Part shown: one piece after another, positions 10,547 to 21,281 of the stretch
Position numbering within the stretch: the stretch's first letter is position 1
Layout of the letters: each line of letters starts with the position of its first letter
NCBI RefSeq assembly: GCF_014646815.1
Contig: NZ_BMNZ01000001.1
Span: 124,001 to 188,000, forward strand
Source of the DNA: Terrabacter tumescens
Lineage (GTDB): Bacteria; Actinomycetota; Actinomycetes; Actinomycetales; Dermatophilaceae
Direction of reading: 5' to 3'
Length of the DNA: 64,000 nt
The notes under the pieces: generated by a model
Told to the model about the DNA's origin: nothing
The model's database searches: none
The model's input: the letters and a program-made list of their open reading frames with translations, nothing else
Position numbers and translations under genes: made by a program

Positions 10547-11325
10547 GCGACCCGACCACCACGACCCTCGCCTTCCTCGCGGCAGCGGCCTTCGTCGCCG
10601 GATGGATCGACGCCGTCGTCGGCGGGGGAGGGCTCGTCCAGCTGCCCGCGCTGCTCATCGGGATGCCGGGGGCCACGCCCGCGCAGCTGCTCGCGACGAA
10701 CAAGTTCGGCTCGATCTTCGGCACGGCGACGAGCTCGATCACCTTCTACCGGCGGGTCCGGCCCGACCTGCGCACCGCCCTGCCCATGGCCGCCGTCGCC
10801 TACGTCGGCTCGATCGGTGGCGCGCTCATCGGGCTGCACATCCCGAAGTCGGCGTTCAACCCGATCATCCTCGTGCTCCTCGTCCTCGTCGGGGCCTACA
10901 CGCTCTTCAAGCCCGACCTCGGCTCCGAGTCGATCCGGCGGTTCCACGGTGCCCGCCACACCGTCCTCGCGATGCTGACCGGCTTCGTCATCGGGGCCTA
11001 CGACGGGGCGCTCGGGCCCGGCACCGGCAGCTTCCTCGTCTTCGCGCTCGTCGGGCTGCTCGGCTACAACTTCCTCGAGGCCAGTGCCAAGGCCAAGATC
11101 GCGAACTTCGCGACCAACCTCGGTGCGCTGACGATCTTCGCCCCGATGGGCCTCGTCATCCTCAAGGTCGGCGTCGTCATCGCCGCGGCCAACCTGCTCG
11201 GCGGCTACGTCGGGGCGCGCACCGCGGTCGCCAAGGGCAGCGGCTTCGTGCGCGCGGTCTTCGTCGTCATCGTCAGCGCCTTCATCGTCAAGATCGGTGG
11301 CAGCCTGCTGGGCTGGTGGCCCTGA
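10543..11325 (+). CDS. TSUP (TauE/SafE) family membrane transporter
   Basis: A 260-residue polytopic protein with about eight hydrophobic segments. The first (AAAFVAGWIDAVVGGGGLVQLPALL) and its internal repeat (LTGFVIGAYDGALGPGTGSFLVF) are the duplicated family hallmark. The ATNKFGSIFGTATSS and SAKAKIANFATN loops are also typical. Characterised members move sulfite, sulfonates, taurine or similar anions, and nothing here decides the cargo. The GTG start overlaps the HAD stop as GTGA. It converges with the P450 gene, leaving a 41-base gap with no clear terminator. Confidence 0.9.
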   Translation: MSDPTTTTLAFLAAAAFVAGWIDAVVGGGGLVQLPALLIGMPGATPAQLLATNKFGSIFGTATSSITFYRRVRPDLRTALPMAAVAYVGSIGGALIGLHIPKSAFNPIILVLLVLVGAYTLFKPDLGSESIRRFHGARHTVLAMLTGFVIGAYDGALGPGTGSFLVFALVGLLGYNFLEASAKAKIANFATNLGALTIFAPMGLVILKVGVVIAAANLLGGYVGARTAVAKGSGFVRAVFVVIVSAFIVKIGGSLLGWWP

Positions 11326-11366
11326 CCTTCGGTGTCGTCGACCGACCGCCAGCCGGAGGGCCGTCG

Positions 11367-12638
11367 TCAGCCGCGAGCGACGACGAGCCTGCGGTAGGTC
11401 GGGATGAGGACACGGCGGGCCGGCTCGCGCTCCACGACGGCCCAGGGCCCGGCATCGGCCAGCGCTCCGAGCACGGCGCGCAGCTCGGCCCGCGCCACCG
11501 GCGCCCCGAGGCAGAGGTGGCGTCCGGCGCCGAACCACAGGTGCCGGTTGTCCGGCAGGTAGGGCCGGTCGAGGTCCAGGGCACCGGGAGCGGTGTTGGC
11601 GACGTAGGTCAGGGCGAGCACCCGGTCGCCGGCCCGCAGCGTCCGTCCGCCGACGGTGACGTCCCGGGTGACGTGGCGGCCGATGACGGGTGCCGGGGTC
11701 GTGACCCGCAGGCCCTCGCGGACGGCGACGTCGAGCAGGTCGTCGCGCTCGTCACCCGTCGCGGCGCAGAGCCGCGACGCCTGGCCGGTGTCGGCGAGCA
11801 GGGCCGTCGTCCGCGCGATCGCGCTCGCTGCCGTCTCGGTCCCCGCGACGAGCAGGAGGGAGGCCAGACCCGTGGCCTCCTGCTCGGTGACCCCGAGCTC
11901 CCGGCAGCGGCCGAGCACCGTCGTGACCGGCGAGGAGCGGTAGGCCGCGGGGACCCCTGAGGTGAGCCCGCCGAGGAGCTCGCGGGCGCGGGCGACCGTG
12001 GGGTCGGAGAGCGTGGTGTCGGCCTGGGTCCCCAGGGCGAGGGCGGCGAGCTCCTCACCACGGGCGAAGACGAGCCGGTAGGCACCCCAGCCGTCGTCGT
12101 CGAGCCCAGCAATCGCGGCCTCGTCGGCGAGGGTCGTCGCGTCGAGGCCGAGCATCGCCACCACGAGGCGTCCGACGAGGACCTTGGCCAGGTCGGCGAC
12201 GTCCACGGTGTCCCCGTCACGCAGGCGACGTCGGAGGAGCTCGGTCACCGGTCCCGCGGCCACCGACACGAGGTCACGGGCTGCGGCCTCGGTGAAGAGG
12301 TCGCGGGCGCGGGTACGCAGCGAGTGGTGGCCCCGGCCGTCGAAGAGGTCCTCCACCCAGTCGCCGAGCACCTGGGACCAGAGGTGCCCGACACCGCCCT
12401 CGCCGAGGAGCGAGGTGGAGCGGTGGTCGACGAGCAGCTCTCGGATGAGCGCGGGATCCCGGACCAGCCAGCCGAGGCCCGGCGCCCTCACGATCCGCGG
12501 ACCGCGTCGGGCGAGGGCGACGAGCAGACCCAGACGGGGGTCGGCCGACCTGATCACGCGGCGCTCGTGACGCGTGGCCAGCCGGTGGCCCGTCGGCGAC
12601 GACACGGGGTGAGTACGTCGGCTCAGCACGGGCTCCAT
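11367..12638 (-). CDS. Cytochrome P450 (divergent member of the Ole-like cluster)
   Basis: A 423-residue soluble P450. The haem-ligand loop is WFGAGRHLCLGAPVAR with the ligand Cys at about residue 376. The I-helix oxygen-activation motif LLVAGTETAAS is intact, and the K-helix ExxR is EGLR. Together with the C-terminal RRVLIPTYRRLVV it closely parallels the second P450 of the cluster (14504-15745), so the two are likely paralogues. It is transcribed away from the ketosynthase gene with overlapping -10 boxes. The ATG at 12638 follows TACGGT by 6 nt, favouring a leaderless start there over the GTG at 12662. Substrate is unknown. By context it may hydroxylate the acyl chains or product of the cluster. 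A redox partner gene is not adjacent. Confidence 0.92.
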   Translation of the reverse strand: MEPVLSRRTHPVSSPTGHRLATRHERRVIRSADPRLGLLVALARRGPRIVRAPGLGWLVRDPALIRELLVDHRSTSLLGEGGVGHLWSQVLGDWVEDLFDGRGHHSLRTRARDLFTEAAARDLVSVAAGPVTELLRRRLRDGDTVDVADLAKVLVGRLVVAMLGLDATTLADEAAIAGLDDDGWGAYRLVFARGEELAALALGTQADTTLSDPTVARARELLGGLTSGVPAAYRSSPVTTVLGRCRELGVTEQEATGLASLLLVAGTETAASAIARTTALLADTGQASRLCAATGDERDDLLDVAVREGLRVTTPAPVIGRHVTRDVTVGGRTLRAGDRVLALTYVANTAPGALDLDRPYLPDNRHLWFGAGRHLCLGAPVARAELRAVLGALADAGPWAVVEREPARRVLIPTYRRLVVARG

Positions 12639-12644
12639 GGCCTC

Positions 12645-12654
12645 ACCGTAAACT
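12645..12654. promoter_or_regulatory. Overlapping divergent -10 boxes (P450 versus ketosynthase operon)
   Basis: The ten bases hold TACGGT on the minus strand (12645-12650), 6 nt from the P450 ATG, and TAAACT on the plus strand (12649-12654), giving a start near 12661 for the ketosynthase operon. The two hexamers share two bases, so one polymerase would exclude the other. Confidence 0.45.
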
Positions 12655-12708
12655 GCCCGCACGGTGCCGGGAGGGCCCGGACGCCGAGCCAGGGAGGGTC
12701 ACGCGCGC

Positions 12709-13719
12709 ATGTCCAGTCGCATCGCCGGCGTCAGCGCCCACGTCGCCGAGCACGCCCTCGACGTCGAGCAGGTCGAGGCCCGCATCGTCGGGTCAAGCAG
12801 CGGGTTCGTCCCTCCCGCGGGCGTGCTGGGACGCCTGACGGGCGTGAGGCGGATCCACCACGCCGGCCCGGACACCCAGGCGTCCGACCTCGCTGCGGCC
12901 GCCGCCCGCACGTCGCTCGCCTCGCTCGACCTCGAGATCGGCGACGTCGACCTTCTCGTGTTCGCCTCCGCGTCGCAGGACCTCGTCGAGCCGGCGACGT
13001 CGCACATCGTGGCCGACCTGCTCGGCGCTCGGTGCCCGGTCATGGACGTCAAGAACGCGTGCAACTCCTGGCTCAACGGCGTCCAGGTCGCGGAGGCCCT
13101 GATCGCCATGGGGCAGTACGACCGCGTGCTCGTCGTGACGGGAGAGATGCCGTCGCGTGCGGCCCGGTGGTCCGTACGCGACGCGGCGCAGTTCGTCGAG
13201 TCGGTGCCCGGCTACACGATGAGCGACGCCGGGGCGGCAGCCCTGGTCGAGCGGGCCGCACCGGGCGCCCGAGGCGAGATCCTGCACCGCTGGTTCACCG
13301 CGGAGTCGCGGCACTGGTCGGTCGGCCAGCTTCCGGCCGGTGGCACCAGGCACCCGCGCGACGTCGACAAGGGCTACTTCGTCATGGACGGCGCCCGCCT
13401 GCGCCAGGCGTTCGACAGCGTCGACGTCGAGGAGATCCACCGCGCGCTCAAGTCCGACGGACTCGGCGTCGAGGACTTCGTGGCGGTTGCCGTCCACCAG
13501 GTCGCAATGCCCTACCTCGACGTCTTCGCCGCGCGCCTCGGGCTGCGGCGCGACCTCGTCGTCGAGACGCTGCCCGAGCACGGCAACTGCGCCTCGGCCA
13601 CGCTGCCCCTCCAGTGGCAGCAGGTGCAGCGGCTCGGGCTCGCCGAGCCGGGCGACCCGGTGCTGCTCGTCGGGCTCGCGGGCGGCATCAGCGTCGGCAC
13701 CATGGCGGTGCGCTGGTGA
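12709..13719 (+). CDS. OleA-like beta-ketoacyl synthase III (thiolase fold)
   Basis: A 336-residue KAS III family enzyme with a complete Cys-His-Asn triad by position: Cys118 in VKNACNSWLNGV, His263 in AVHQVAMP and Asn293 in HGNCASATLPL. The NAC..(x)LNG pattern resembles OleA-type enzymes, which join two acyl-CoAs head to head to a 2-alkyl-3-keto acid, more than FabH. The following OleC- and OleD-like genes support this reading. An initiating FabH-type ketosynthase is the main alternative. The ATG at 12709 has AGGGAGGG 10-17 bases upstream. An in-frame GTG at 12664 would add a poorly conserved Gly/Arg tail. First gene of a five-gene operon joined by 4-base overlaps. Confidence 0.88.
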   Translation: MSSRIAGVSAHVAEHALDVEQVEARIVGSSSGFVPPAGVLGRLTGVRRIHHAGPDTQASDLAAAAARTSLASLDLEIGDVDLLVFASASQDLVEPATSHIVADLLGARCPVMDVKNACNSWLNGVQVAEALIAMGQYDRVLVVTGEMPSRAARWSVRDAAQFVESVPGYTMSDAGAAALVERAAPGARGEILHRWFTAESRHWSVGQLPAGGTRHPRDVDKGYFVMDGARLRQAFDSVDVEEIHRALKSDGLGVEDFVAVAVHQVAMPYLDVFAARLGLRRDLVVETLPEHGNCASATLPLQWQQVQRLGLAEPGDPVLLVGLAGGISVGTMAVRW

Positions 13720-14507
13720 CGGGTCCGGCACCCCTCGGAGCCGGTGACGTCCGGCTCTGGGTCGTCGTCCCGGCCTTCGACGAGGAGGCCGGCATCGCGC
13801 GCACCATCGCCGCGCTCGCAGCACAGCACGACCGCGACTTCAGACTCGTCGTCGTCGACAACGCCAGCACCGACGGGACGGTGCTCGCCGTCGAAAGTGC
13901 TTGTGCGGCATACGGACTCGGCGTCACGATCGTCACGGAGAGGCGCAAGGGCACGGGCGCGGCCTCCGACACGGGGGTGCGCCACGCCATCGCGCACGGG
14001 GCCACGCACGTGCTGCGCACCGACGCGGACACGTTGCCCACTCCTCGGTGGACCGCCGTCGGGCGCCGCGCGTTCGCGGCCGGCGCCGATCTCGTCACCG
14101 GACCCATGCGGGCCCGCACCGACGAGGTGCGGCTGCGTCCGTGGGAGCGCGTCGTCCTGCCGGGAGTCATCGGCTTCTGCCAGGCGTTCGGCCGCTTCCG
14201 CCCGAGCAACCGCTCACCCGAGCTGCTCGGCCCCTACCGGATGAGCCCGGGCTGCAACCTCGGCGTCAGCGCCCGCGCCTACGAGGCGAGCGGCGGCTTC
14301 CCCCGCACGGCGATCGAGGAGGTCCACGAGGACCGCGAGCTCGTCAACCGGGTGCGGCGCGTCAGCTCGCGCCTCGAGCACCACCGCGGCCTCGTCGTGC
14401 ACGCGTCGGTCCGGCGGCTGCGCGCCTACGGCCTGCGCAACACCCTGCGCTGGTACCTCGACCACGGCCACCGCCCGGACGTCGTCGACGTGCGGGTCGT
14501 CGCGTGA
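13716..14507 (+). CDS. Family 2 glycosyltransferase
   Basis: A 263-residue GT-A fold enzyme. WVVVPAFDEEAGIARTIAAL is the nucleotide-sugar-binding start, VVVDNASTDGT follows, LRTDADTLP carries the DxD-like metal site, and IEEVHEDRELVNRVRR supplies the ED base motif. No clear membrane span is present, though FCQAFGRF and the basic C-terminal helix (RRLRAYGLRNTLRWY) could touch the membrane. Such enzymes move a sugar from an NDP-sugar or a lipid-linked donor to an acceptor. In this operon the acceptor may be a hydroxylated lipid made by the neighbours, which is inference. It overlaps the ketosynthase and P450 genes by GTGA on both sides. Confidence 0.88.
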   Translation: MTGPAPLGAGDVRLWVVVPAFDEEAGIARTIAALAAQHDRDFRLVVVDNASTDGTVLAVESACAAYGLGVTIVTERRKGTGAASDTGVRHAIAHGATHVLRTDADTLPTPRWTAVGRRAFAAGADLVTGPMRARTDEVRLRPWERVVLPGVIGFCQAFGRFRPSNRSPELLGPYRMSPGCNLGVSARAYEASGGFPRTAIEEVHEDRELVNRVRRVSSRLEHHRGLVVHASVRRLRAYGLRNTLRWYLDHGHRPDVVDVRVVA

Positions 14508-15745
14508 GGGCGCTCGCGCGCACCGACCCCGGGAGCCGCTGGGAGTCACGGCTGGTGCGTTCGGCCCACCCCGTGGTCGCCCGCGTGGTCGACGCGGCCG
14601 TGTCGCGTCGCGGGGTCGTACGCGTGCCCGGAGTCGGCGTGCTCGTGGCCGACCCGGGGGTGGCCCGGCGGGTGCTGACCGACCCGGACGCCTTCGCCAA
14701 GAACGGTCCCGGCTCGTCTGGGGCGCTGTGGACGCCGGTCCTCGGCGAGCGGGTGCTGCTCAACATGGAGGGCGCGGCCCACCGCGCCCTCCGACGCTCG
14801 CTGTCCGACCTCTTCTCGCCGCGTGTCGTCCGCGAGGTCTGCGACGCCGCCGCCGGGCCGCTGGTCGCCGCGGCAGCGTCGAGGCTGAGGGCGGGTGAGG
14901 ACCTCGACGTCGTCCGGCTCGCGCGCGAGGTGTCGGCCGCGGCCATCGGGGTCGTCGTCGGGCTCGACCCCGCCACTCCACCTGCGACGCTGCTGGAGGC
15001 GAGCGATGCCATCGAGTCGATGGTCAGCTGGCGCACCCGCGGGTTCGACGAAGGTGCGGTCCGCCGGGCGCGTGCCGCGCTCGCCGTCGTGCAGGACGCG
15101 GCCGAGTCCGCCCACGCGGCAAAGGGACCCGACACCGTCATGGGCCGACTGGCACGCCAGGGCGCCTCGCTCGACGACGCCCGGTCCCTCGCCGCAGCAC
15201 TCTTCCTCACGGGCACGGGCACCGTCAGCAGTGCGTTCCCGCGGATCGCCGGCCAGCTCGCCGACGCCGACCTCCTCGCTCCCGGACGGGTCCTCTCCCA
15301 CGACGTCGACGCAGTCGTCGCCGAAGGCCTGCGCATGACGACGCCGAGCCTCGCGACCCTGCGCCGGTGCGTGCGTGTCACGGACCTCGGCGGGGTCCGC
15401 GTGCGCGCCGACGAACGCGTCGTCGTGCTGCTCTGGTGGGCGACCCGGCGCGAGGGCGGCTTCGACCCAGGTCGCGCGGCCACGGGCGACCTGCGCCACC
15501 TGTGGTTCGGTGCCGGCAGCCACTTCTGCCTCGGGGCTCCGCTCGCCCTCGCCGAGCTGCGCGCGATGACCGCGATGCTGCTCGACGTGGCCGGCGAGCA
15601 GGGGCTCGTCGTCTCGTCGCGCCGGGCCGCCCGTCGCGTCCTCGTGCCGCGCTACGCAGAGCTGACCGTGCGGACGCCGAACGGGCGTCAGGTCGACCGT
15701 CTGGCGCGGCCGGCAGGGCCGAGCCGATCGGACCGGGCGGCGTGA
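14504..15745 (+). CDS. Cytochrome P450 (in-operon paralogue)
   Basis: A 413-residue P450 with haem loop LWFGAGSHFCLGAPLALAE (ligand Cys near residue 342), ExxR as EGLR, and C-terminal RRVLVPRYAELTV. The I-helix reads FLTGTGTVSSA. The Thr is kept, but the usual acidic residue before it is Gly, unlike the partner P450 with AGTET. That substitution occurs in some P450s with altered oxygen activation, so unusual chemistry is possible. The N terminus (RLVRSAHPVVARVV, GVGVLVADPGVARRVL) aligns well with the divergent P450. GTGA overlaps join it to the genes before and after. Confidence 0.9.
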   Translation: MRALARTDPGSRWESRLVRSAHPVVARVVDAAVSRRGVVRVPGVGVLVADPGVARRVLTDPDAFAKNGPGSSGALWTPVLGERVLLNMEGAAHRALRRSLSDLFSPRVVREVCDAAAGPLVAAAASRLRAGEDLDVVRLAREVSAAAIGVVVGLDPATPPATLLEASDAIESMVSWRTRGFDEGAVRRARAALAVVQDAAESAHAAKGPDTVMGRLARQGASLDDARSLAAALFLTGTGTVSSAFPRIAGQLADADLLAPGRVLSHDVDAVVAEGLRMTTPSLATLRRCVRVTDLGGVRVRADERVVVLLWWATRREGGFDPGRAATGDLRHLWFGAGSHFCLGAPLALAELRAMTAMLLDVAGEQGLVVSSRRAARRVLVPRYAELTVRTPNGRQVDRLARPAGPSRSDRAA

Positions 15746-17310
15746 CCCCTCGCGACGACCTCGTCACGACGATCCTCGCGAGGGCCGGCGAGTCACCACG
15801 TCGCGTGGCCATCCGCGACCACCGGGGCCGGTCGGTGACGTTCGGCGAGCTCGGCGCGGACGTCACGCGCGTCGCCGCACATCTCGCGTCCCGCGGTCTC
15901 GCCGCCGGGGAGGGCGTGCTGCTGGCCGTCCGGCCCTCGCCGCGGGCCGTGTCCGCAGCCCTGGGGGTCGTCCTCGCCGGGGGAGTCGTCGTCGTGGCCG
16001 ACCCCGGAGCCGGCGAGGCGCTGCTCGACGTGCGCCGCCGGACCGTGCCGGTGCGCGGGGCGGTCGCCGACACCGTCGTGCACGCCGCCACCCACCGGCC
16101 GCTGTCGTCCCTGCTCGCGCGGCTGCCGGCCACATCGGGGCTGCAGCTGCCGGACCTGTCGACGCCGGGGCTGGTCCACGTCGTCACCGGCCCGCGCCTG
16201 CCCGGTGTGCCGAGGTCGGCGACGCGCTGGGAGCAGCTTCCGACCGGCAGTCCGCCTGCGGCCGTGGGGGATCCGGCACGCGACGCGCTCGTCGTGTTCA
16301 CGTCCGGGACGACGGCCGCGCCCCGTGCGGTCGTGCACACCCTGCGCTCGCTCTCTGCCGGCATCGAGGCCGCCGTCATGGCCCTCGAGCTCGACGAGCG
16401 TGTCGTGATGCACACCGACCAGCTCATGATCGGGCTGCCGACACTCCTCGCCGGAGCGACGTGGTCGTTGCCGCCCGTCACAGCCACGACGCGGGCCTGG
16501 CTGCGCCAGGCCGAGCGCGAGCGGGCGACCCACGCGTATGCCGTGCCGACCAAGATGCTGGCCGCCGCGTCCCGTGGGCTGCCGCCGGCGATCCGACAGC
16601 TCGGCATGGGCGGCGCTCCCGTCCTGCCGGTCACCGTCCGTCGACTGGGTTCGCTCGCTCCCGGCGTGTCCGTGCGGGCGGTCTACGGGCTGACCGAGGC
16701 CCTCCCCGTCGCCGTCGCCACCGGGGATCAGGTGCTCGCGTCGCCGCCGGGCCGCACCTGCCTCGGACCCCCGCTGCCGGGGGTCACGGTGCGCATCGAG
16801 ACCCCCGACCGCGACGGTGTCGGCGAGATCGTCGTCCGTGCCCCGCAGGCCCGCCACCGCCTCGCGGGTGAGTCGCCGACCGAGGAGGTGCGCACCGGCG
16901 ATCTCGGCGAGCTCGGCCCCGACGGCACGCTGCTGCTCGCCGGGCGGTCCAAGAACATGATCATCCGGGGGCAGGCCAACATCTACCCCGAGCTCGTCGA
17001 GCCGCTGCTGCTCGACCGGCTCGGGGACGCCATCGCCGACTGCGCCCTCGTCGGGGTCGCCCACCCCGTGACGGGGGACGAGCGCGTCGTCCTGGCCGTG
17101 GTCCCGGTCCGTGCGGGGTCGCCGGAGACGGAGGCTGCCACCCTGTCGCGCCTCGTGCTGCGTGCCTGGTCGGGACTCGCGGACGACGCCTGGCGTCCAG
17201 ACGAGGTCGTCACGGTCGCGGAGGTGCCGCGCCGGGGGCGCTCGGCGGGCGTCGACCTCGAGGCCCTGCGTGGCCTCGTGGACAGCAGGCGTGAGGAAGC
17301 GCCGGCATGA
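15742..17310 (+). CDS. OleC-like adenylate-forming enzyme (putative beta-lactone synthetase)
   Basis: A 522-residue ANL-superfamily protein. The P-loop VFTSGTTAAPRAVVHT has its Ser at about residue 188. The A5 block YGLTEALPVAVATG and the early VVVADPGAGEALLD recall OleC, which has a DPGMG stretch and TEALPVA, better than ordinary acyl-CoA ligases. OleC activates a beta-hydroxy acid with ATP and closes a beta-lactone. The A8 region RTGDLGELGPDG and GRSKNMIIRGQANIYPE is present. The A10 segment reads VPRRGRSAGVDLEALR, where the catalytic Lys of most family members seems to be Gly, so activity may be altered. Coupled by GTGA to the P450 and by ATGA to the reductase. Confidence 0.82.
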   Translation: MTPRDDLVTTILARAGESPRRVAIRDHRGRSVTFGELGADVTRVAAHLASRGLAAGEGVLLAVRPSPRAVSAALGVVLAGGVVVVADPGAGEALLDVRRRTVPVRGAVADTVVHAATHRPLSSLLARLPATSGLQLPDLSTPGLVHVVTGPRLPGVPRSATRWEQLPTGSPPAAVGDPARDALVVFTSGTTAAPRAVVHTLRSLSAGIEAAVMALELDERVVMHTDQLMIGLPTLLAGATWSLPPVTATTRAWLRQAERERATHAYAVPTKMLAAASRGLPPAIRQLGMGGAPVLPVTVRRLGSLAPGVSVRAVYGLTEALPVAVATGDQVLASPPGRTCLGPPLPGVTVRIETPDRDGVGEIVVRAPQARHRLAGESPTEEVRTGDLGELGPDGTLLLAGRSKNMIIRGQANIYPELVEPLLLDRLGDAIADCALVGVAHPVTGDERVVLAVVPVRAGSPETEAATLSRLVLRAWSGLADDAWRPDEVVTVAEVPRRGRSAGVDLEALRGLVDSRREEAPA

Positions 17311-18269
17311 GGGTGGCCGTCACGGGGGCCAGCGGCTTCGTCGGGGGAGCGGTCCTCGACCTCCTGCTGGCGCGAGGACACGACGTGCTCGCCCTGAGCC
17401 GACGCCCCGTCGCCTCGCGTCCGGGCCTCGAGCACCGACAGTGGGACCTCACGAGCGGAGCGCTGCCGGACGCGCCGAACGTCGACGTCGTGGTCCATGC
17501 GGCAGCGCACGTCGACGAGTGGGACCCGTGGGCCGTGCACCAGGCCGTGACCGTCGGGGGCACGCAAGCCGTCCTCTCGACCTGGCCCGCCGCACGGGTC
17601 GTGCTCGTCTCGTCGTGCAGCGTCTACCCGCTCCGGGCCCCTCGACCTCCCCGGGAGGTCCTGACCGAGGACGTCGCACCGACCCGGCGCCACCTGTCGG
17701 CGTACTCCCGGGCCAAGGCGGTCCAGGAGCGGCTCGTGCTCGACCGTCCCCGCACCGTCGTGCTGCGGCCCCATGCCGTGCACGGCCCCGGGGACCCGAC
17801 GCTCCTGCCGAGACTGGCCCGGGCACGCCGACGGGGCCGACTGTTCTGCCCCGGCGACCCCGACACCCTCGTCCACCTCACCGACGTCCGGCTCGTCGCC
17901 GAGGCGGCGGTCGCGGCCTGCGAGATCCCCTGCGACGCAACGGTCCTCAATGTCGCGGACGCGGACCCACTCCCGCTGGCCGCCGTCGCCGCCGGGGTGG
18001 CCACCGCCAACGGCTGGACCGAACGACCGCTGTTCACCGGTGCACCCACCGCGTGGGCCGCGGCGCTCGCCCTGGAAGGCGCCGCACGCCTCCTGCGCGC
18101 ATCCACGCCACCGCTGCTCACGGCATACGCCGTCTCCCACCTCGCGGTGAGCCGGATCTTCGGCACGGACCTGCTGCGTCAGCAGCTCGGGGTCGAGCCC
18201 CGCGCGACCGACCTCTCTCGCTGGCGACCCACCCCCACACCCGAGGGGGCCGGGGACTCACACGCGTGA
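17307..18269 (+). CDS. OleD-like NAD(P)-dependent short-chain reductase (3beta-HSD family)
   Basis: A 320-residue extended SDR. The cofactor loop is VTGASGFVGGAVL near residues 4-16, VVHAAAHVDEW follows, and the catalytic Tyr and Lys are in SAYSRAKAVQE. The stretch VLRPHAVHGPGDPTLLPRLARA followed by RRRGRLF is typical of the 3beta-HSD/OleD group. OleD reduces the keto acid made by OleA to the beta-hydroxy acid used by OleC. The match of all three partners in one operon supports that assignment over a sugar epimerase, though a sugar epimerase serving the glycosyltransferase cannot be excluded. Start ATGA overlaps the ligase stop. Last gene of the operon. Confidence 0.85.
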   Translation: MRVAVTGASGFVGGAVLDLLLARGHDVLALSRRPVASRPGLEHRQWDLTSGALPDAPNVDVVVHAAAHVDEWDPWAVHQAVTVGGTQAVLSTWPAARVVLVSSCSVYPLRAPRPPREVLTEDVAPTRRHLSAYSRAKAVQERLVLDRPRTVVLRPHAVHGPGDPTLLPRLARARRRGRLFCPGDPDTLVHLTDVRLVAEAAVAACEIPCDATVLNVADADPLPLAAVAAGVATANGWTERPLFTGAPTAWAAALALEGAARLLRASTPPLLTAYAVSHLAVSRIFGTDLLRQQLGVEPRATDLSRWRPTPTPEGAGDSHA

Positions 18270-18319
18270 CATCCTCGTGACACAGCACACGCACAGGATC
18301 TGCGCCGAACCTGAGTGCC

Positions 18320-19741
18320 ATGACCTCACTCGCCCTCTCCGAGAGCCGCGACCTCTCGGTGCCGGCCGCGTCGCGGCGCCAGGCCCTCGCCCCGACGCCC
18401 CGCTGGCTGCGGGACGCGTCCGCCGTGTTCGCCTGGGGCGTCACGCTGTTCGTCGTCGCCCTCTGGGTGGCCGGCGGGGGACTGACCGCCTTCGGCACGC
18501 TCGGTGAGAGCCTCATCAACATCGGTCGCCTCACGGGTCTCGTCGCCTCGGTGCTCATGCTCCTGCAGGTGCTGCTCATGGCGCGCATCCCGTTCGTCGA
18601 GCAGGCCTGGGGCCAGGACGAGCTCGCCCGCGTGCACCGGCTCGTCGGCTTCACCTCGTTCAACCTCATGGTCGCCCACATCGTGCTCACGACCGTCGGC
18701 TACAGCGCCGGCACCGACCTGGGCGTCATCGCGACGTTCGTCGACCAGGTGCTGCACTCGCCGGGCATGCTCCTCGCCCTCGCCGGCACCGTCGCGCTCG
18801 TCATGGTCGTCGTGACCTCGGTGAAGAAGGCGCGCGCGAGGCTGCGCTACGAGTCGTGGCACCTGCTGCACCTCTATGCCTACCTCGGCGCCGGGCTCGC
18901 CCTGCCGCACCAGCTGTGGACCGGACAGGACTTCACGTCGAGTGTCACGGCCACCGTCTTCTGGTGGGGGCTGTACGCGTTCGCGCTCGTCGCCGTCCTC
19001 GTCTACCGCATCGGGCTGCCGCTCGTCCGGTCCCGTCGCCACCGCCTGGTGGTCTCCGAGGTCGTCGCCGAGACCCCCACCGTGACGTCGGTCGTCATGA
19101 CGGGGCGCCGACTCGACCGACTGCCCGTCCGCGCCGGTCAGTTCTTCCAGTGGCGCTTCCTCGACGGTCCGGGCTGGACGCGAGGCAACCCCTACTCCCT
19201 GTCCGCCGCGCCGGACGGCCGCTCGCTCCGCATCACGGCCGAGGCCGTCGGATCCTCCAGCGCCCGGCTCGCCACGCTCCGGCCCGGCACCAAGGTCGTC
19301 GTCGAAGGGCCCTATGGACGACTTCACGCCGGGGTCCGCACGCGCGACAAGGCCGTGCTCATCGGCGCCGGGATCGGCATCACCCCGCTGCGTGCCCTCC
19401 TCGAGGAGCTGCCAGCAGCACCGGACGGCGTCGTCGTCATCTACCGCGTCGGCAGCCAGGCCGACATCGTGCTCGCCGACGAGCTGCTCGACCTCACCCG
19501 CGCCAAGGGCGGCCGCGTCGTCGCCGTCGTCGGCCACCGCAACCGCGAGCGTGCCAGCTGGCTGCCCGTCGAGTCGAGCCACCTCACCGACGCCGAGGCC
19601 CTGACCCGGATCGTGCCCGACATCGCCGAGCGCGACGTCTACGTGTGCGGCAACCCCGCCTGGATGGACACCGTCATCACCGCCGCCCACGAGGCCGGCG
19701 TGCCGCCCGAGGCCGTGCACCACGAACGCTTCACCTACTGA
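18320..19741 (+). CDS. Ferric-reductase-like membrane flavohaem oxidoreductase
   Basis: A 473-residue protein. The first ~215 residues hold about six membrane helices of the ferric reductase domain, with likely haem His residues in RVHRLVGFTSFNLMVAHIVL and SWHLLHLYAYLGAG plus LPHQL. A cytosolic FNR-type module follows: FAD binding at RGNPYSLSAAP, and NAD(P) binding at IGAGIGITPLRALLEEL with the terminal YVCGNPAWMD. It would pass electrons from NAD(P)H across the membrane. The next two genes encode an exported FMN-binding protein and the enzyme that attaches flavin, so the three likely form one trans-membrane electron route. Acceptor (iron, quinone or other) is unknown. Upstream bases 18270-18319 show no obvious promoter. 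Confidence 0.88.
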   Translation: MTSLALSESRDLSVPAASRRQALAPTPRWLRDASAVFAWGVTLFVVALWVAGGGLTAFGTLGESLINIGRLTGLVASVLMLLQVLLMARIPFVEQAWGQDELARVHRLVGFTSFNLMVAHIVLTTVGYSAGTDLGVIATFVDQVLHSPGMLLALAGTVALVMVVVTSVKKARARLRYESWHLLHLYAYLGAGLALPHQLWTGQDFTSSVTATVFWWGLYAFALVAVLVYRIGLPLVRSRRHRLVVSEVVAETPTVTSVVMTGRRLDRLPVRAGQFFQWRFLDGPGWTRGNPYSLSAAPDGRSLRITAEAVGSSSARLATLRPGTKVVVEGPYGRLHAGVRTRDKAVLIGAGIGITPLRALLEELPAAPDGVVVIYRVGSQADIVLADELLDLTRAKGGRVVAVVGHRNRERASWLPVESSHLTDAEALTRIVPDIAERDVYVCGNPAWMDTVITAAHEAGVPPEAVHHERFTY

Positions 19742-19825
19742 CCCTTCGACCCGAGCGGACCCGCGACGACGCGACGTACGCCCCCGCATCCGCCCCGCAT
19801 CCGCCCCGAACGAATCGAGCCCCCA

Positions 19826-20377
19826 ATGCGACGCATCGTCCTCTGGGCCATGAGCACCCTGACCGTGCTCGTCCTCCTCTTCAGCTACAGCACCTCGCGC
19901 AGCTCCTCCGCCCTCGTGGCAGCCGAGACCCGGACGGTGACGACCACGAGCAAGACCTCGGACAGCACCGGCTCCACGTCGGGATCCTCGTCGGCGTCGG
20001 CGACCGACTCCTCGGGCCAGCAGCCGACCGGCACCTCCGCGACGCCGAGCGGCTCGTCGGGCTCGTCGGGCTCGTCCGGCTCGTCCGGCTCGTCGTCAGC
20101 GACCAAGACGTACGCCGGTGACGCGGTCATGACGCGCTACGGCAACGTCCAGGTCCAGATCACCGTCAAGGACGGCAAGATCACCGCGGCCGAGGTGCTC
20201 CAGGTCCCGTGGAACGACCGTCACGACCAGATGATCAACTCCGAGGCCGTCCCGGTCTACAACCAGGAGGCCGTTGCCGCCCAGTCGGCCCGGATCGACG
20301 TGGTGTCCGGTGCGACCTACACGTGGGACGGCTACACCCAGTCCCTGCAGTCCGCCATCGACCAGGCCAACCTGTGA
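19826..20377 (+). CDS. Exported FMN-binding domain protein
   Basis: A 183-residue protein with one N-terminal membrane segment (IVLWAMSTLTVLVLLFSYS), a Ser/Thr/Gly linker from residue 35 to about 92, and an FMN_bind domain. The linker contains repeated Gly-Ser-Ser units encoded by a near-perfect 9-base repeat around 20049-20096. The domain ends with VVSGATYTWDGYTQSLQSAI. The Thr in SGATYT is the site where ApbE links FMN by a phosphoester in RnfG/NqrC-like proteins. The domain is predicted outside the membrane, with the linker letting it reach a partner. It lies between the reductase and apbE. Confidence 0.87.
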   Translation: MRRIVLWAMSTLTVLVLLFSYSTSRSSSALVAAETRTVTTTSKTSDSTGSTSGSSSASATDSSGQQPTGTSATPSGSSGSSGSSGSSGSSSATKTYAGDAVMTRYGNVQVQITVKDGKITAAEVLQVPWNDRHDQMINSEAVPVYNQEAVAAQSARIDVVSGATYTWDGYTQSLQSAIDQANL

Positions 20378-20411
20378 GGCACTCTTGAGACAGGCGACCG
20401 AGGAGCCCACC

Positions 20412-21281
20412 ATGAGCCGACCCGCGACCCCCAGCCAGCCCGTCCCCTCCACCAAGCCCGTCCTGCCGCTCCAGCCCCTGGAGCCCGTGCAGGGCATACG
20501 TCCCCCGCTGCCCGCGCAACCGGGCGCGGCTCCCGCGCCGGCCCGGCGCGCCTGGGTGGAGCAGATCATGGGGATGCCGATCTCGATCCACCTGCGCGGC
20601 GACGACGTCGACCGGCCCGAGGCGCAGCAGGCCGTCGCGGAGGCCTTCCGGATCCTGCGCGAGATGGACTCGATCTTCTCGACCTACCGCGACGACTCCG
20701 ACCTCATGCGCCTGCGCCGTGAGGAGGTCCAGGTGTCGCAGTGCAGCCCGCTCGTCGAGGAGGCGCTGCGCATCGGGCAGGAGGCCGAGGTCGTGACGAA
20801 GGGAGCGTTCACGACGCTCCTGCCCACGGGTGACGGCGACCTCGCCTTCGACCCGACCGGCCTCGTCAAGGGGTGGGCCGTCGACCGCGCCTCGGTGCCG
20901 ATGCGGTCGCTCGAGCGGATCTCCTTCTGCATCAACGCCGGTGGGGACATCCTCATCGGCGCCCACCCCGACATGCCTACGACCGGGCCAGATGCGATCG
21001 TGTGGCGCGTCGGTGTCGAGGACCCGCTCGACCGGCAGCGGATCGCGAGCACCCTGACCCTCGCGCGGGGAGCGGTGGCGACGTCCGGGACCGCGGCGCG
21101 GGGAGCGCACCTCTACGACCCGCACTCGCGCGAGCTCGTCGGGCGCCTGGGGTCGGTGACCGTCACGGGGCCCACTCTGCTGTGGGCCGACATCTGGGCG
21201 ACAGCGCTCTTCGTCGGCTCGGAGCGCACGAGCGAGGCCTTCGCCACGAGCGCCACGGACTACCTCTCCACCGCCCTCTGA
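20412..21281 (+). CDS. apbE: FAD:protein FMN transferase
   Basis: A 289-residue ApbE family enzyme, which uses FAD and a divalent metal to attach FMN to a Thr of partner proteins. Family features are MGMPISIHL, the acidic STYRDDSDLMRLRR, DPTGLVKGWAVDRA, CINAGGDILIG and VATSGTAARGAHLYDP. A Pro/Ala-rich 45-residue lead replaces a normal signal or lipobox, so the protein may work in the cytoplasm or be anchored another way, which is unusual because its presumed partner is exported. The ATG at 20412 follows a GAGGAG-like site. The neighbour upstream carries the SGATYT acceptor motif. Confidence 0.92.
   Translation: MSRPATPSQPVPSTKPVLPLQPLEPVQGIRPPLPAQPGAAPAPARRAWVEQIMGMPISIHLRGDDVDRPEAQQAVAEAFRILREMDSIFSTYRDDSDLMRLRREEVQVSQCSPLVEEALRIGQEAEVVTKGAFTTLLPTGDGDLAFDPTGLVKGWAVDRASVPMRSLERISFCINAGGDILIGAHPDMPTTGPDAIVWRVGVEDPLDRQRIASTLTLARGAVATSGTAARGAHLYDPHSRELVGRLGSVTVTGPTLLWADIWATALFVGSERTSEAFATSATDYLSTAL

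Follow-up and report, generated by a model that had tools for sequence, protein, structure and literature searches.

An OleA-like ketosynthase and a sister of OleC in a six-gene cluster of Terrabacter tumescens, a candidate source of glycosylated 2-alkyl-3-hydroxy fatty acids

We analyzed a window of 64,000 nucleotides from Terrabacter tumescens (assembly GCF_014646815.1, contig NZ_BMNZ01000001.1, positions 124,001 to 188,000), and focused on a cluster of six genes at 11367–18269. A first examination of the letters, made with no database searches (hereafter the sequence-only reading), had described five plus-strand genes joined by 4-base overlaps and a divergent, paralogous cytochrome P450, and analysis of open reading frames (ORFs) together with Pfam bore this out. 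The plus strand carries an OleA-like ketosynthase of KASIII fold (12709–13719), a GT2 glycosyltransferase of GT-A fold (13716–14507), the cytochrome P450b (14504–15745), an ANL-superfamily enzyme (15742–17310) and an OleD-like extended short-chain dehydrogenase/reductase (SDR; 17307–18269). All four junctions between them are 4-base overlaps (13716–13719, 14504–14507, 15742–15745 and 17307–17310). The divergent cytochrome P450a (431 amino acids) runs on the minus strand from a GTG start at 12662 to 11367, has an alternative in-frame ATG 24 bases inside that start, and is 36% identical to P450b. Each of the six proteins matched at least one Pfam family above the gathering score: KASIII, GT2 (72 bits), P450, AMP-binding, epimerase-type SDR and, for P450a, a second P450 (43.6 bits). 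All six genes were intact, and a promoter and terminator scan found nothing.

Comparison with congeners showed where the cluster ends. In the window, a TSUP-like gene ends at 11325 and a ferric-reductase-like gene begins at 18320, and the 7.0 kb between them is occupied by the six genes. The ANL enzyme was found in five of the nine Terrabacter genomes, our own included (E 1e-30 or better). One of the four genomes that lacked it (G002) is only 74% complete and had no match to the flank gene. In the other three (G001, G004, G007) the flank genes adjoin, with their aligned parts 84–152 bases apart; thus, all three block-less congeners that hold the flank have an empty site. The absent block corresponds to 11326–18278 of the window, where the right edge is approximate and shares sequence with the empty sites. 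No word of at least 10 bases was shared between the two block edges. We concluded that the six genes form one unit that is patchily inherited, because exactly this block is absent from three congeners and because the five-gene order recurs in distant actinomycetes.

The genes that follow the block (18320–21281) encode in a row a ferric-reductase-like membrane protein, an FMN-binding protein and an ApbE-like protein, named from reading, and the row resembles a flavin-based electron-transfer set. A wider operon that takes in these genes was rejected, and the row was placed outside the cluster, because it is also present at the empty sites.

A scan of contigs returned 17 loci, of which one (L025, from a Gemmatimonadetes metagenome-assembled genome) had a ketosynthase only 26% identical to that of the window, leaving 16 actinomycete loci. 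The closest named loci were from Terrabacter, Terracoccus and Humibacillus (Intrasporangiaceae), with ketosynthases 87–93% identical. The order ketosynthase-GT2-P450-ANL-SDR was kept in 14 of the 16 loci; in the two exceptions, the ANL gene was inverted (L014), or a GT2-ANL fusion stood with no adjacent P450 or SDR match (L022). Conservation of gene order in relatives, which the sequence-only reading had put forward as a check, therefore held beyond chance, with three congeners missing exactly the block.

Across 394 genomes of the class, the ketosynthase profile at 1e-70 detected 33 places in 32 genomes, the place in our own genome being taken from the window, and a GT2-bearing cluster was present in 21 of the 394, our own included. 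The window order was seen at nine places and, with no SDR match, at one more (L085), whereas the order ketosynthase-GT2-ANL-P450-SDR was seen at seven and, again with no SDR match, at one (L095). Two places had the ketosynthase with a GT2-ANL fusion (L076, L079), one had a second GT2 (L096), and 12 had no GT2 match. Some of these loci overlap the named ones (L076 is L022, and L077 is L019). The ketosynthase-GT2-ANL-P450-SDR order was also found on the linear plasmid pKVP2 of Streptomyces viridifaciens (L212, CP090842.1), where the genes downstream encode a 3-hydroxyacyl-CoA dehydrogenase and another P450 accompanied by a ferredoxin.

Natural fusions joined GT2 to the ANL enzyme at L022 (10995–13349) and L079 (6740–9145), and GT2 to P450b at L086 (7631–9589). 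These fusions indicated that the cluster genes are tied in function. Only those at L022/L076, L079 and L086 are real; other long GT2 ORFs (374 to 638 amino acids) were artefacts of start picking. Near the L022 and L079 clusters lie an acyl-CoA dehydrogenase and an SDR of the adh_short type. Neighbors at distant loci (6PGD, LytR, acyl-CoA dehydrogenase and others) vary from one lineage to another, and we did not count them as cluster members.

The sequence-only reading had assigned the ketosynthase to the OleA type. Among NCBIfam models it scored highest with the generic PRK09352 (146.6 bits), then with PRK09258, which we take to be the OleA-type model (130.8), and then with FabH (126.2), all under cut-off; for PRK09258 the cut-off is 285 bits, and the loci L108 (control) and L098 scored 466 and 147. 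A conventional fatty acid gene set of the FabH type, standing among unrelated neighbors, would agree with the lead of the generic KASIII model. The remaining evidence contradicted it. The best match in the PDB was 3row (1.3e-28), deposited as a 3-oxoacyl-[ACP] synthase III, which, like the rest of the top twelve PDB sequences, presumably belongs to the OleA series of X. campestris. The Cys-His-Asn triad (Cys118, His263 and Asn293 in the window) was present in 50 of 50 ketosynthase rows. A Glu-Pro pair (Glu94-Pro95 in the window, Glu117-Pro in X. campestris numbering) was present in the same 50 and in five of five further OleA-side rows (55/55), but in none of 13 rows of FabH and other KASIII enzymes. 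Smith et al. 2020 (PMC7064751) report that only two of their OleA proteins lack the Glu-Pro and that it is essential in X. campestris.

A ketosynthase tree of 44 rows split 31 OleA-like rows from the 13 FabH and other KASIII rows at 100/98, with a long-branch warning for outgroup rows and with one mis-extracted FabH row (L131, 96 amino acids) excluded. Among the 31, five canonical OleA separated from 26 others (98/93), and this group of 26 includes both the window and L098, whose locus has a true OleC. In our own genome, the close ketosynthase matches were only the window protein and one FabH, which is encoded outside the cluster. Because of its triad, the Glu-Pro of OleA and its grouping with OleA, the ketosynthase is, judged by tree and motifs, OleA-like and not a FabH. 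The FabH gene set, which gene order and the empty sites also contradict, is scarcely credible.

The SDR resembled OleD, as the sequence-only reading had proposed. Its top NCBIfam model was OleD (NF042422, 105.7 bits against a cut-off of 580), ahead of the next distinct family, HpnA (51 bits); relatives' SDRs scored 83–158 bits, and the OleD controls, at 283 and 368, likewise fell below the cut-off. The Ser, Tyr and Lys residues (Ser105, Tyr133 and Lys137 in the window) were retained in 16 of 16 rows. The pattern RPHxxxGPGDP named in that reading was found as RPHAVHGPGDP. Of the 16 rows, 14 kept RPH and 13 kept GPGD, the window and both OleD controls among them. In taking this stretch as a mark of OleD we follow the sequence-only reading.

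Our own genome had no OleB match at E 1e-5, in a search that found the positive control in genome G043 (283.6 bits), and no OleC match at 1e-60, against such matches in 67 of the 149 genomes from its order. An olefin end product was therefore rejected: with no OleB match, the sequence rules olefins out to the extent that sequence can.

We compared the ANL enzyme with OleC by tree, profile and motif. In a tree of 65 rows (11 of them flagged for composition), 16 ANL enzymes from glycosyltransferase-bearing clusters formed one clade (100/100) and eight OleC formed another (100/99), and the two clades joined each other (100/99) to the exclusion of 41 other ANL enzymes, which came from three genomes. 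These 41 were listed from 60 matches: 13 of 13 from our own genome, and 28 from G043 and G431, for which 30 loci of 50 matches were drawn on and two, the OleBC and the cluster ANL of G043, were excluded. The stretches DPGAG and TEALPVA, in which the sequence-only reading had recognized OleC, were both present. At the first of these motifs OleC rows read DPG (five of six group-B rows) or D[ATQ]G (eight of eight OleBC rows), and at the second TE.[LM]; seven ordinary ligases differed at the second and had N[PY] or similar at the first.

Profiles and the C-terminal half told otherwise. The OleC profile NF045786 gave 65 bits for the window and 79, 89 and 64 for L015, L016 and L087, against 315 and 541 for the controls L108 and L098, and the wider OleC-holding family PRK09274 gave the window 98 bits against 354 and 528. 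The top NCBIfam model for the window (133.7 bits), L015 and L016 was PRK06187, a common acyl-CoA ligase, and for L087 it was PRK09274 (103 bits). At motif A10, RHN[AS]KI was found in 14 of 14 OleC rows and in none of 35 glycosyltransferase-cluster rows; outside Terrabacter, all 28 of the latter had GR..K[LPV]DR with the common A8 motif GR.[KR]DM...N[ILV]YP. OleC membership was thus rejected by profile scores and the A10 motif, and by these comparisons the ANL enzyme is a sister of OleC but no OleC. The likeness to OleC noted in the sequence-only reading stood for the shared stretches and the sister clade; OleC identity did not. That reading had also named a best fit of the ketosynthase to FabH and of the ANL enzyme to ordinary ligases as telling against it; by profile score the generic KASIII and ligase models did come first, and trees and motifs overruled them fully for the ketosynthase and half for the ANL enzyme.

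These results bear on two accounts of the ANL step. In the first, as Smith et al. (2020) proposed for Actinoplanes, the enzyme would adenylate a 3-hydroxy acid and close a four-membered ring like OleC, and the product would be a glycosylated beta-lactone. The position of the enzyme as OleC's sister clade, the stretches it shares with OleC, the lack of an OleB match in the genome for decarboxylating a lactone, and the place of the L098 ketosynthase, which stands beside a true OleC, in the window's ketosynthase group all favor it. The low OleC scores (64–89 bits) of the four glycosyltransferase-cluster enzymes scored and the absence of RHN[AS]KI from all 35 rows do not. In the second account the enzyme is a starter ligase, which would make acyl-CoA or acyl-AMP for the ketosynthase with no ring closure, leaving an open hydroxy-acid glycolipid. 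Its best profile is a long-chain acyl-CoA ligase, the ligase-like A8 and A10 motifs are kept in the 28 non-Terrabacter rows, and a fold search with the predicted structure (a complete two-domain fold; mean predicted local distance difference test score, pLDDT, 82.9) ranked the amide synthetase McbA and acyl/aryl ligases first, but the tree sets the enzyme beside OleC and away from 41 ordinary ANL enzymes.

The A10 lysine weighed on both accounts. It was absent from all seven Terrabacter-type rows (Gly, Ala or Val in its place, with Gly in the window), and present in 42 of 42 other OleC and glycosyltransferase-cluster rows; counts for the 41 other ANL enzymes were not used, 17 of those rows having no lysine and most of the 17 being shortened at extraction. 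The hinge Asp was replaced by Asn (the window residue) or Ser in the window and six relatives (7/7), a weak indication by itself because this residue also varies among other ANL enzymes and OleC. In the ANL superfamily, normal adenylation is unlikely in an enzyme that lacks the A10 lysine. For the Terrabacter lineage, going by these residues, normal adenylation is doubtful, and the loss would affect a starter ligase as much as a lactone-forming enzyme. Closure of a beta-lactone was not established, because the ANL enzyme lacks the OleC A10 motif and, in the Terrabacter lineage, the A10 lysine. We consider the beta-lactone account rather unlikely for the window, and the starter ligase unlikely.

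Residue losses also affected the P450s. P450a kept AGTET, ExxR and the heme Cys in nine of nine rows. P450b retained the heme Cys and ExxR in Terrabacter-type rows, but its I-helix read GTGT (as in the window) or GVGT in all seven of them, with loss of the acid, against GTET in 17 of 17 distant group-1 rows. L096, the sole group-2 row in that alignment, also had no GTET pattern, and in the distant row L015 Asp replaces the Glu of ExxR. A GT2-P450 'activator' role (TIGR04515) was dropped, as P450a scored 57 bits and its Catellatospora homologue 67 against a cut-off of 343, and the heme Cys is kept. P450a was gone from two Terrabacter-type loci through different deletions, L010 retaining both gene ends and L023 only the 5' end. 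In a ketosynthase tree with two FabH rows only, L010 paired with L011 (100/86) and L023 with the window (100/84); this separation fits two losses.

A decaying cluster, in which the ANL enzyme and P450b are dead and the pathway halts early or yields nothing, would account for the missing lysine and I-helix acid in 7/7 rows each, for the two P450a deletions, and for the absence of an ANL match from four of nine genus genomes (one only 74% complete). We estimated the ratio of nonsynonymous to synonymous substitution (dN/dS, Nei-Gojobori) for the window against up to six relatives. All 34 of 34 comparisons gave values of 0.10–0.34 (ketosynthase 0.10–0.13, GT2 0.15–0.25, P450a 0.17–0.21, P450b 0.18–0.28, ANL 0.23–0.30, SDR 0.21–0.34), indicating that all six genes are constrained, ANL and SDR least. 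Because both the ANL gene and P450b are under purifying selection, their odd residues are unlike decay. The pseudogene reading was thus disfavored by dN/dS, and the six window genes are intact; in Terrabacter-type rows the ANL enzyme retains Glu at A5, Asp at A7 and Arg at A8, and P450b retains the heme Cys and ExxR. We regard decay as highly improbable.

The motif RTDAD of the GT2 was invariant in 24 of 24 rows. Its AlphaFold2 (AF2) model (pLDDT 86.4) had as nearest folds WrtF, a fucosyltransferase whose structure was solved with GDP-fucose, and PcManGT, a mannosyltransferase. The model points to a nucleoside diphosphate (NDP)-sugar as donor, and does not indicate which one.

From the observed gene content, unit inheritance, conservation, residues and tree positions we infer all of the chemistry that follows. 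The ketosynthase, given its triad, Glu-Pro and tree position, would join two acyl chains head to head to form a 2-alkyl-3-oxo acid, which the OleD-like SDR would reduce to the 2-alkyl-3-hydroxy acid. One or both P450s may oxidize the chain, and the GT-A glycosyltransferase, by its fold and motifs, would attach a sugar from an NDP-sugar. The ANL enzyme would act on the carboxylate; in the wider family, where the residues for acyl adenylation are present, this would probably be lactone closure or acyl transfer. The most likely product of the window cluster is a glycosylated, oxidized 2-alkyl-3-hydroxy fatty acid, that is, a mycolate-like glycolipid rather than a proven beta-lactone, and we give this reading a probability of roughly one half (0.52). 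The open hydroxy-acid glycolipid is our first choice because normal adenylation is unlikely in the Terrabacter lineage. To our knowledge, bacteria of this lineage have no mycolic acids. A further step, less likely than not, is that the Terrabacter OleC-sister no longer adenylates, so that an OleA-initiated pathway has been rerouted from lactones to mycolate-like glycosylated 2-alkyl-3-hydroxy acids, or that the enzyme carries out a non-adenylating acyl transfer, of which we know no case in the ANL superfamily. In relatives that keep the lysine, the enzyme may plausibly adenylate its substrate and then form a lactone or an ester, which would agree with Smith et al. 2020 (PMC7064751).

Several points weigh against the glycolipid pathway. 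No OleA, OleC or OleD model reached its curated cut-off on the window proteins; the generic KASIII model outscored the OleA-type model on the ketosynthase (146.6 against 130.8 bits); and the OleD profile also matched another SDR of the same genome (80 bits). At L022 and L079 the cluster has no neighboring P450 or SDR of the types seen here. In Smith et al. (PMC7064751), the Actinoplanes OleA showed p-nitrophenyl ester activity, but little protein could be purified and no condensation of C8–C16 acyl-CoAs was seen; one actinobacterial OleA clade, which may or may not be that of the window ketosynthase, showed weak activity only, in one homologue. Because of that failure on C8–C16 acyl-CoAs and of the weakly active clade, the substrates of the ketosynthase may be others.

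The six-gene unit is intact, has clear evolutionary bounds and is naturally missing from the empty-site strains, and so offers a means of testing the role of this actinobacterial OleA group; in the open-licence PubMed Central (PMC) literature we found a single report on such a cluster at the enzyme level. That the ANL enzymes form a sister clade split from OleC calls into question the beta-lactone prediction for a family of clusters found in Streptomyces, in Streptosporangiaceae and in their relatives. The missing A10 lysine, for its part, provides a natural experiment on the contribution of the ANL step.

Among known systems, oleABCD with an OleBC fusion (Micrococcales; L108–L115) shares with the window the Cys-His-Asn and Glu-Pro of the ketosynthase, an OleD-type SDR and an ANL enzyme from the sister clade. 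It differs in that the window genome has no OleB match, the ketosynthases are 25–29% identical, and L108 reaches 315, 466 and 283 bits with the OleC, OleA and OleD profiles where the window reaches 65, 131 and 106. Genome G043, from the same order as the window genome, holds both an oleA/oleBC/oleD locus (L115) and a cluster of the GT2 type in the window order with no SDR match (L085), so the two are not alternatives.

The oleACD clusters for beta-lactones include those of lipstatin and nocardiolactone (PMC7064751). Our group-3 loci of oleACD type (L097–L102) have ketosynthases 39–42% identical to the window's, and the three included in the tree (L098, L101, L102) fell in the window's ketosynthase group. 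In contrast to the window, group 3 has a true OleC, as the profile showed for L098 (541 bits) and the A10 motif for L098–L102, and none of its proteins matched the window GT2 or P450s at 1e-5. Five of these ketosynthase/ANL/SDR loci (L097–L100, L102) belong to one family (f35) and lie beside an ORF of 2,348–2,564 amino acids.

The closest relative in print is the cluster of Actinoplanes atraurantiacus, for which Smith et al. 2020 (PMC7064751) list OleA, a glycosyltransferase, OleC, a P450 and OleD, and predict a glycosylated beta-lactone. The two clusters share five protein families, the lack of oleB and the kind of product proposed. They differ in the window order of ketosynthase-GT2-P450-ANL-SDR with a divergent second P450, and in the window ANL enzyme having no A10 lysine; the kinship is one of gene content, and the published list is perhaps not a gene order. 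The sequence-only reading knew of no described cluster in this order. Its content of five domains was already named by Smith et al., and the exact order with a divergent second P450 was not found in print within the open-licence PMC literature. Because the same five domains had been named in Actinoplanes, the kind itself is already known, if uncharacterised, and the window cluster is one variant of it. Within the literature searched, the new points are its wide conservation, the empty sites, an ANL enzyme that is sister to OleC yet differs from it in C-terminal motifs, the residues lost in this lineage, and the gene fusions.

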